The notes under the pieces are model-generated. The model was not told the DNA's origin, did not search any database, and saw nothing but the letters and a program-made list of their open reading frames with translations. The position numbers and the translations under genes were made by a program. From the NCBI RefSeq assembly GCF_000720325.1, contig NZ_JOJM01000027.1, positions 77,379 to 141,378 of the forward strand: DNA of 64,000 nt, written 5' to 3'. Below are positions 44,130 to 45,426 of this stretch, in pieces. Every line of letters begins with the position of its first letter. Within the stretch, counting starts at the first letter, position 1. This stretch comes from Streptomyces sp. NRRL B-1347. GTDB taxonomy: Bacteria; Actinomycetota; Actinomycetes; Streptomycetales; Streptomycetaceae.

Positions 44130-44232
44130 GCCCCGATCCAGGTCTCCCGGCCGGGTCGAGGGGCTGCTCCAGGCCCCGTAGACAGCTGCTGTTGAAGCAG
44201 AAACGATCGTCCGACCGCATACTGGGCGCGAG

Positions 44233-44274
44233 TTGACCACTTCCCACGGTCATGGTCTACTCCGGACCATGACC
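44233..44274 (+). promoter_or_regulatory. Promoter and inverted-repeat operator of the cysteine dioxygenase operon
   Basis: The -35 is TTGACC (44233-44238); 17 nt later TCTACT (44256-44261) is a possible -10. A perfect 10-bp inverted repeat GGTCATGGTC (44248-44257) / GACCATGACC (44265-44274) with a 7-nt spacer straddles the -10 and the predicted start near 44266-44269, a good repressor site. Confidence 0.65.
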
Positions 44275-44355
44275 GACACCGCTGTCCGCTTGTGGCGGAG
44301 GGTCCACATGGACCTCGTCCGCTATGCGGGCTGCGTGTGTCAGACGTCCTGCTGA
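44269..44355 (+). CDS. Cys-rich leader peptide upstream of cysteine dioxygenase
   Basis: A 28-codon ORF whose last 15 residues are MDLVRYAGCVCQTSC, with Cys at positions 22, 24 and 28 and a stop right after the last. ATG 44269 lies at or within a few bases of the predicted transcription start (leaderless). An in-frame ATG at 44308 is preceded by GGAGGG at 44297-44302 and would give only the 15-residue form. The segment CGTCCTG at 44345-44351, covering the last codons, is complementary to CAGGACG at 44414-44420, next to the start of the dioxygenase gene. This architecture matches the polycysteine leader ORFs known from mycobacterial cysteine operons. A regulatory rather than structural role is inferred. 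Confidence 0.65.
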   Translation: MTDTAVRLWRRVHMDLVRYAGCVCQTSC

Positions 44356-44425
44356 ATTCGCCATCTCCACCCCTCTCGCGTGCCCGTCGTCGGCGCGCCG
44401 TTCCGCGAACTCCCAGGACGGTCTC

Positions 44426-44977
44426 ATGTCAGCGTCTGTCTCCAGCCCTGCCCCTTTGCCCTCCCCTTCCGGCTCCCGCGTGGCCCCGCCCACCTCGGCC
44501 GACCTCCTCCACTTCGTGCGCCGCACCGCCGCGGACGCAGATCTCGTCGCCTCGCTCCCCCTCGACCCCGAGGGCCGCACCTGGGTGCGCCTCGACGGGC
44601 CGGGCGGCAGCGAGGCCTGGCTGATCGGGTGGCCGCCCGGCACCGGCACCGGCTGGCACGACCACGCCGAGTCGGTCGGCGCCTTCACCACCGCCTCGGG
44701 CGCCCTCAAGGAGTACTCCCTCGCCGCCCGGCTCCCCACCGACGGCTGGAAGACCCTGGAACTCACCGAGGGCATCGACCGCGAGCGGCAGCTGCCCGCC
44801 GGGCAGGGACGGGCGTTCGGCCGCAACCACGTGCACGAGGTGCTCAACGAGTCCACTACGGAGCACGCCGTCTCCGTGCACGCGTACTATCCGCCACTTC
44901 CACGGATCCGTCGCTACAGCCGCACCGGTGACGTGCTACGCCTTGAGCACGTCGAGCGTCCGGAGGACTGGCAGTGA
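44426..44977 (+). CDS. cdoA: Cysteine dioxygenase (cupin)
   Basis: A 183-residue non-haem iron enzyme that oxidises cysteine to cysteine sulfinate. The 3-His site is readable: His-x-His in GTGWHDHAESVGAF and the third His in FGRNHVHEVLNES, with the family's Tyr in VHAYYPPLPRIRRY. I chose ATG 44426, 5 nt after AGGACGG; an upstream in-frame ATG at 44324 overlaps the leader ORF and lacks a ribosome site. It overlaps the rhodanese gene by 4 bp (GTGA). Together they would channel cysteine sulfur toward oxidation and transfer. Confidence 0.9.
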   Translation: MSASVSSPAPLPSPSGSRVAPPTSADLLHFVRRTAADADLVASLPLDPEGRTWVRLDGPGGSEAWLIGWPPGTGTGWHDHAESVGAFTTASGALKEYSLAARLPTDGWKTLELTEGIDRERQLPAGQGRAFGRNHVHEVLNESTTEHAVSVHAYYPPLPRIRRYSRTGDVLRLEHVERPEDWQ

Positions 44978-45426
44978 GTGCGGGCCTTGAGCTGAACAGC
45001 ATCCCGGGTGTACCGACGGCTTCGGCGACCGCCGCGGAGCCGCTCACACCCGTGGGCATAGACGAGTTCCTGGAACGGGTGCGGCGCGACCTCGACCGGG
45101 TCACGCCCCGGCAGGCGTACGAGATCGACCGGTCCGGGGGCCTGCTCGTCGACATCCGGTACGCGGCACTGCGCGAGCGCGACGGCCTGATCCCGGGGGC
45201 GCTGGTCGTCGAGCGCAACGAACTGGAGTGGCGCCTCGACCCCCAGGGCAGCCACCGCGCCCCGCAGGCCGTCAGCCACGACCTGGAGATCGTCATCGTC
45301 TGCAACGAGGGCTACGCGTCGAGCCTCGCGGCCCACTCCCTGCGCCAACTCGGACTGCGGCACGCGACCGACCTCGTCGGCGGCTTCCAGGCCTGGAAGG
45401 CGGATGGTTTCCCCATCGCCGAGTGA
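44974..45426 (+). CDS. Rhodanese-like sulfurtransferase domain protein
   Basis: A 150-residue single rhodanese domain. LLVDIRYAALRERDGLIPGALVVER is the CH2-like N-terminal element, and the catalytic loop Cys lies in VIVCNEGYASSLAAHSL, followed by GGFQAWKADGFPI. The first 35 residues are variable. The GTG start overlaps the dioxygenase stop, so the two are translationally coupled. Pairing with cysteine dioxygenase suggests handling of persulfide, thiosulfate or sulfite produced in cysteine breakdown. Confidence 0.9.
   Translation: MSAGLELNSIPGVPTASATAAEPLTPVGIDEFLERVRRDLDRVTPRQAYEIDRSGGLLVDIRYAALRERDGLIPGALVVERNELEWRLDPQGSHRAPQAVSHDLEIVIVCNEGYASSLAAHSLRQLGLRHATDLVGGFQAWKADGFPIAE

Follow-up and report, generated by a model that had tools for sequence, protein, structure and literature searches.

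The window, a stretch of 64,000 nucleotides from the genome of Streptomyces sp. NRRL B-1347, carries on its plus strand a cysteine dioxygenase (CDO) gene and, shortly upstream of it, a small open reading frame with three Cys codons near its end. The initial annotation described this reading frame as a leader peptide, and its coordinates proved accurate: the leader ATG lies at 44269, CGTCCTG at 44345-44351, CAGGACG at 44414-44420 and the CDO ATG at 44426. The leader stop codon is at 44353-44355, and 70 nt separate the end of the leader from the CDO ATG. In the list of open reading frames the leader is given from a TTG further upstream, at 44233. The features are as follows, leader codons being numbered from the histidine of HMDL, which is codon 0.

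44233 to 44261, plus strand: promoter-like element, TTGACC, 17-nt spacer and TCTACT with TG before it; putative, from column conservation
44269 to 44355, plus strand: leader open reading frame, 28 codons, peptide MTDTAVRLWRRVHMDLVRYAGCVCQTSC, stop TGA; match to NF042934
44294 to 44323, plus strand: predicted leader-internal hairpin around GGUCC-ACAU-GGACC (44301-44314), from the consensus fold of 124 elements
44332 to 44334, plus strand: first Cys codon, TGC, position +9
44338 to 44340, plus strand: second Cys codon, TGT, position +11, the likely control codon
44344 to 44351, plus strand: anti-Shine-Dalgarno (anti-SD) arm, CCGUCCUG in most relatives and ACGUCCUG in the window, where it forms 7 pairs
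44350 to 44352, plus strand: third Cys codon, TGC, position +15
44357 to 44361, plus strand: 5' arm UUCGC of a weaker inner helix, partner GCGAA at 44405-44409, found by eye
44414 to 44421, plus strand: CDO Shine-Dalgarno (SD) region CAGGACGG, 3' arm of the sequestering helix
44426 to 44977, plus strand: cysteine dioxygenase type I gene, the controlled gene (PF05995, 158.8 bits)
44974 to 45426, plus strand: rhodanese-domain gene (PF00581), overlapping the CDO stop and probably co-transcribed

By eye, and with mammalian CDO as the comparison, the CDO may have an Arg-type active site; the solved CDO structures are distant relatives only. A rhodanese gene follows CDO in 157 of 170 relatives, as recognized by two sequence motifs. 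SCO3035 was considered as the CDO of S. coelicolor; one paper calls it hypothetical, and the candidate was dropped.

The two parts of the promoter-like element, TTGACC (44233-44238) and TCTACT (44256-44261), are kept in 155 of 164 distinct relatives, the nine remaining elements having been excluded as no start codon stood at the expected place. Since the conserved columns end 7 nt upstream of the leader ATG, the transcript is likely to be leaderless and to start at or beside this codon. A sigma-70 consensus scan detected no site. No terminator-like site was found on the plus strand in 44130-44440, where the intrinsic terminator of a classical transcription attenuator was looked for; the single terminator-like site near the leader is on the minus strand (44218-44203). 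The sequence of the leader-internal hairpin hardly varies, and the same stretch is also coding. In its commonest form among the relatives, GGTCCATATGGACC, the segment 44301-44314 is a perfect 14-bp DNA palindrome, the window having GGTCCACATGGACC; an RNA hairpin is the simpler reading and a protein-binding site a possible one. A known Rfam element was rejected, the three weak matches all lying below the gathering score.

Occurrence of the leader and its Cys codons

Altogether 186 CDO loci were scanned, namely those of 80 named relatives (79 labelled Streptomyces) and 106 further ones including that of the window, with some species present in both sets. The script detected the leader at 171 loci and overlooked an intact one at L180, so that with L180 added the leader is present at 172 of the 175 close CDO loci. 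Locus L188 stops at a contig edge, and at L191, which holds just the end of the CDO gene, no leader was seen. In Streptomyces tailanensis (L048:20-1950) an insertion of about 1.9 kb splits the CDO leader into two halves, offering a natural test case for CDO expression. No leader was found at two loci from another genus of the order (L189 and L190), nor at nine distant CDO homologues of 39-47% identity (L192-L200), seven from Streptomyces genomes and two from other genera of the order. The absence from the distant homologues indicates that the leader goes with one type of CDO.

All three Cys codons had been thought to matter. Conservation does not support this as stated: among the 171 detected CDO leaders Cys stands at +9 in 167 and at +11 in all 171, and the third codon is Cys in only 154 and replaced in 17. 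The codon at +11 never varies, being TGT in every one of the 171; Ser +14 is encoded by TCC in 164. The paralogous leaders follow the same rule, with TGT in 75 of the 76 that have Cys at +11 and TGC in the remaining one (78 non-CDO leaders were considered and two, with TGA and GTT at +11 and one of them probably spurious, were dropped). Cys codons of neighbouring and downstream reading frames comprise 191 TGC and 30 TGT (n = 221, some of these frames being wrong). The other Cys codons in the gathered leaders are TGC in 77 of 98 cases, but at +12 to +14 TGT accounts for 10 of 21.

Two readings involving the fixed UGU were rejected. In the consensus fold it pairs with a 5' GACAC, yet it stays in CDO leaders devoid of the GACAC segment and in paralogues with other surroundings, which speaks against RNA pairing as the reason. 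The idea that leader and CDO are fused by a +1 frameshift at a hungry UGU, prompted by the CDO frame of the window being open upstream beyond this codon, fails on the gap lengths, which modulo 3 are distributed 82:51:37 over 170 loci; in the 51 loci CDO shares the leader's own frame, closed by the leader stop.

Pairing of the leader end with the CDO Shine-Dalgarno region

The exact complementarity of CGTCCTG and CAGGACG was noted in the initial annotation, and the pairing of the leader end with the dioxygenase SD is conserved. Its length of 7 bp applies to the window; in most relatives the helix is one of 8 bp, CCGUCCUG with CAGGACGG. The SD could be located at 170 loci (L079 was dropped) and reads CAGGACGG in 161 of them. 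Among the 164 distinct elements the mean is 7.69 of 8 pairs: all 8 are formed in 126, 7 in 27, 6 in nine and 5 in two. When the register is slid by 1-4 nt, the mean falls to 1.98-4.24 pairs. Shuffling SDs among the loci reached the observed 7.69 in 0 of 1000 trials; the margin is small (the shuffle mean is already 7.64) because both arms hardly vary.

Covariation, proposed as a mark of a real helix, was found in part. The seventh pair is U-A in most elements, and is apparently retained through change as A-U in L016 and L103 and as U.G in L133, while L168 and L171 have UUCC opposite GGAA. Twelve loci are uncompensated at this pair, with the SD changed in L015, L017, L025 and L055 and the leader changed in L035, L042, L084, L113, L131, L170, L176 and L182. 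Nine elements have CCCUCC or CCUUCC opposite an unchanged SD, with loss of the pair. Compensation in this helix is thus partial, some changes being compensated and many not. The region of the inner helix contributes just three pairs to the consensus fold, two of them formed in 90/124 elements. The gaps between leader and gene measure 62-148 nt and look C-rich by eye.

The effect of a ribosome on this helix was calculated with ViennaRNA at 30 C as the cost of freeing AGGA when the ribosome footprint is forced to be unpaired. When no ribosome is present, the median cost over 124 loci is 8.85 kcal/mol; an A site at +9 lowers it to 7.0, one at +10 to 4.4, one at +11 to 3.4 and one at the stop to 2.6, and at the stop it is below 2 kcal/mol in just 27% of the loci. 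According to the folding calculation the SD would therefore still be mostly shut at the first Cys codon. The order of positions stayed the same when the 3' edge of the footprint, counted from the first base in the P site, was set at 11, 13 or 15 nt, and at 17 nt +9 was already half open (4.04 kcal/mol; 42 loci in both cases). The window itself gives 8.8 kcal/mol with no ribosome, 10.4 at +9, 5.0 at +11, 6.5 at +12, 7.1 at +13, 4.1 at +14, 2.3 at +15 and 2.2 at the stop, so that here clear opening is predicted at the leader end only.

When 200 genomes of the family were searched with a leader pattern allowing up to three mismatches, 113 gave a match, many of the three-mismatch matches looking unrelated. 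Forty loci outside Streptomyces were picked by eye and 36 yielded a leader; as the pattern ended in TGT, they say nothing on codon choice. At seven loci from the genera g127, g129, g134 and g137 the leader ends in RPSC or RPSR and pairs with the SD at 8 of 8 positions, or at 7 in L332. The seventh pair is C-G in three of these loci, all of g134, and U.G in two, both of g137. One allied lineage has thus kept the pairing while both arms changed, and this includes leaders with Arg in place of the last Cys. The opening cost for the seven loci is 11.4 kcal/mol with no ribosome and then 8.0, 3.9 and 3.3 kcal/mol at the successive positions.

Leaders of the genus g128 retain the RYAGCVC core, with small variants, and the TGT. 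They have an end of the TAAR or PGSR type and an SD that is mostly GGGTGG, and the SD pairing is lost. At 26 g128 loci the ribosome position had no effect on SD opening (5.5 to 5.9 kcal/mol; 3 of the 36 loci outside Streptomyces, at which no start was found, were dropped from the calculation). By eye, most g128 leaders (L315-L330 and L338-L350) end in TAAR, with their stop codon spanned by a GC-rich hairpin, and a small local hairpin seems able to form at the CDO SD, which in many reads AGGGTGGTNACCC. A strong SD switch thus appears, from these calculations, to belong to the Streptomyces-type CDO leader.

The leader family and related systems

The window leader matches the NCBIfam model NF042934, 'putative leader peptide', over positions 1-19 of 19 with 37.2 bits (cut-off 27), and it lies a short distance upstream of sulfur-metabolism genes, here CDO and rhodanese, as is expected of this family. 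The entry as displayed contains no mechanism, SD pairing, fixed UGU or CDO target. Neither the CDO leader nor the UGU rule was found described in a literature search, most subscription papers being outside its coverage. The leader family is known, and what is new is the CDO target, the SD pairing and the fixed UGU. All 21 Streptomyces genomes scanned have leaders of this family, between 3 and 13 each; in a sample of 149 genomes from across the phylum they were found in 10, of which four are Streptomyces.

From the fetched loci 88 distinct leaders were collected, 78 of them other than CDO leaders. The core R.H.DL.R.....C seems, from the codons used, to be kept as a peptide: Arg -2 and Arg +5 are each encoded by five codons and Leu +3 by three. 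Part of the core invariance is due to selection, because the leaders were collected by the NF042934 profile together with a regular expression that demands R, H, D/E, L/A and R. Pfam assignments for representatives place the paralogues at genes for ThiS/CysO, PALP cysteine synthase, sulfite reductase, sulfatase, flavin and FMN reductases, luciferase-like monooxygenases, ABC permease and binding proteins, an SDF symporter and an SBP_bac_5 protein; a 2OG-Fe(II) oxygenase, a ROK protein and a gene with no Pfam hit occur once each. The genome of the window (G000) has further NF042934-type leaders at loci L001, L002, L004, L006, L007, L008 and L009, the last three below the family cut-off. They precede genes for CysO, sulfite reductase, sulfatase, ABC permease, flavin reductase, luciferase-like monooxygenase and SDF symporter, named by Pfam on the loci themselves or on group representatives. 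According to the accessible text of one study, ssuABC, cysNDCH, cysI and cysM-SCO2911-SCO2912 of S. coelicolor rise together under oxidative stress in dependence on HbpS-SenS-SenR, and that text names no dioxygenase among them (PMC4991794).

In eight paralogue families of 2 to 12 loci each, with starts set by pattern, the folding calculation gave no SD switch comparable to that of CDO. The nearest was the symporter family (3 loci), with 6.2 kcal/mol for no ribosome, 4.1 at +9, 4.4 at +11 and 6.7 at the stop. The paralogous leaders L250 and L289 carry GTCTCCA, the exact 7-nt complement of TGGAGAC at the downstream SD, before the Cys codon and not after it; here the calculation gave no ribosome effect.

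The mycobacterial polycysteine leaders (the Ms5788A family, NF042933; Canestrari 2020) have in common with the window leader a short, here presumably leaderless, reading frame with Cys codons before sulfur genes, and attenuation by cysteine supply is reported for them in PMC9031893 and PMC13236596 (see also PMC4633059). They differ in having adjacent Cys codons before the stop, whereas the window leader has CVC and a separate last Cys and scores 14 bits with the NF042933 profile, below its cut-off of 45; moreover, the gene controlled in the window degrades cysteine. The cys leaders predicted in Mycobacterium, Propionibacterium and Bifidobacterium by Seliverstov 2005 likewise have Cys codons near the stop. 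Unlike here, the accessible text mentions neither a cys leader from Streptomyces nor any conserved pairing at the cys operons (PMC1262725). The published 'methionine' leader metL before metNIQ of S. lividans TK24 ends in RCMCRRMCAF (PMC8079986); as its last part holds three Cys codons next to two Met codons, it might read cysteine instead of methionine.

Mechanism and direction of the response

The CDO gene has a real, conserved cysteine leader, and that the leader end forms an SD-sequestering helix and acts at the SD is likely. About evenly balanced, in our estimate, is the further proposal that the leader is a translational attenuator, in which the timing of SD opening by the UGU reads Cys-tRNA supply and moderate cysteine limitation favours CDO-rhodanese. 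Transcription would start at the leader ATG or right next to it. As long as the leader end is free of ribosomes, its last codons would pair with the CDO SD and CDO would be off. A ribosome waiting at the first Cys codon would fall short of the anti-SD arm, and one with its A site at or beyond the UGU at +11 would cover this arm and free the SD, most fully at the stop. The time spent at the UGU, a rare Cys codon that is presumably decoded slowly, and at the later codons would set how long the SD is open, and the leader would thereby read the supply of Cys-tRNA. Moderate limitation would then favour CDO-rhodanese in the direction presumed for the sulfur-acquisition operons with the same kind of leader. 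The sulfite made by CDO-rhodanese might be recovered by sulfite reductase and CysO-CysM, which have such leaders; this would be a conceivable purpose.

The sign was explored in a time-share kinetic sketch with assumed rates, the SD being taken as open from +11 onward. As Cys-tRNA drops hundredfold, the open fraction rises from 0.18 to 0.73, and with Cys +9 removed it rises to 0.89; a leader with Cys at +9 alone is the only such leader that would fall. The sketch thus predicts CDO to be on in cysteine limitation, Cys +9 damping the response and not inverting it. As the SD opens in the last codons, any ribosome there would free it. The opening profile of the window and the count of uncompensated loci weigh against the translational attenuator, as do the small share of loci below 2 kcal/mol at the stop, the half-open +9 with the 17-nt edge, the g128 leaders with peptide and UGU but no helix, the paralogues with no comparable SD effect and the rise of CDO genes in feather medium given below. 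So does the reaction itself, since oxidation of cysteine by bacterial CDO is reported (Dominy 2006, cited in PMC7181669) and its induction by cysteine shortage looks wasteful; such induction would be reasonable if sulfite reductase received from CDO the sulfite of thiols.

For a cysteine-destroying gene the initial annotation had left a choice between an inverted logic, in which with ample cysteine a ribosome that completes the leader masks CGTCCTG, and a cysteine oxidation that serves another need. In the calculation such a ribosome indeed opens the SD, in the window more clearly than one at +11, and to that extent the first idea holds. Across the 124 loci, however, the ribosome at +11 opens it too, and the sketch, with its assumed rates, gives more opening when cysteine is short. 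The second idea gains favour from the other family members, which precede mostly sulfur-acquisition genes.

An action mainly on transcription, Rho-dependent or ribosome-coupled and probably as in the paralogues, is a further explanation that we regard as unlikely; the SD helix of Streptomyces and a few allied genera would then be an extra that only deepens repression. The peptide and UGU of g128 persist despite the missing helix, most paralogue families have no SD effect, and the C-rich gaps fit such control, which Seliverstov 2005 suggested in its Rho-dependent form for the mycobacterial cys leaders and graded as a weak prediction (PMC1262725). Against this, Streptomyces and four allied genera have a conserved helix in which some changes are compensated and whose calculated effect is large, and the plus strand has no intrinsic terminator.

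An inversion of the sign would need a nascent-chain sensor, and we consider it quite unlikely that the core R.H.DL.R.....C acts as one in the manner of TnaC, high cysteine holding the ribosome near the leader end with the SD freed. The tnaC leader of E. coli works by Rho-dependent termination with tryptophan as ligand; it differs in this ligand effect from the CDO leader, for which a sensor role is a candidate only. Both may be compared as leader peptides with conserved residues ahead of an amino-acid catabolic gene, tnaC governing the operon tnaC-tnaAB (PMC10941005). The synonymous codons of the core point to a selected peptide, which goes beyond the need of a plain codon-counting attenuator, and the SD is most open with a ribosome at the stop codon, especially in the window. 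Yet the same core stands before assimilation genes, expected to be off at high cysteine, and part of its invariance stems from the way the paralogues were selected. CDO genes are also up in keratin medium, which would agree with such a sensor: in feather medium cdo1 rose 50.2-fold and cdo2 8.3-fold (PMC7181669). In another strain, two CDO genes were up 21.65- and 6.36-fold at 96 h together with cysD, cysNC, cysC and cysH (PMC12763843). The published expression is ambiguous on the sign, as the leader-bearing gene is not named and cysteine is not separated from other signals. More doubtful still is a scheme in which one cysteine-reading nascent peptide with a fixed UGU serves the sulfur regulon of Streptomyces as a whole and the sign for each gene depends on where the anti-SD lies with respect to the Cys codons, so that cysteine would switch the catabolic CDO on and the acquisition genes off.

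The sign of cysteine control is reduced to one reporter experiment. The UGU found in almost every leader, next to kept residues with varying codons, marks cleanly, and so far without explanation, what these leaders sense. The leader finding also bears on keratin degradation by Streptomyces, in which the sulfite made by CDO has been proposed to help break disulfides (PMC7181669). It connects an enzyme that oxidises cysteine with a family of leaders found elsewhere mostly at sulfur-acquisition genes, and it poses the puzzle of a cysteine-destroying gene in a set with many genes that gather sulfur.
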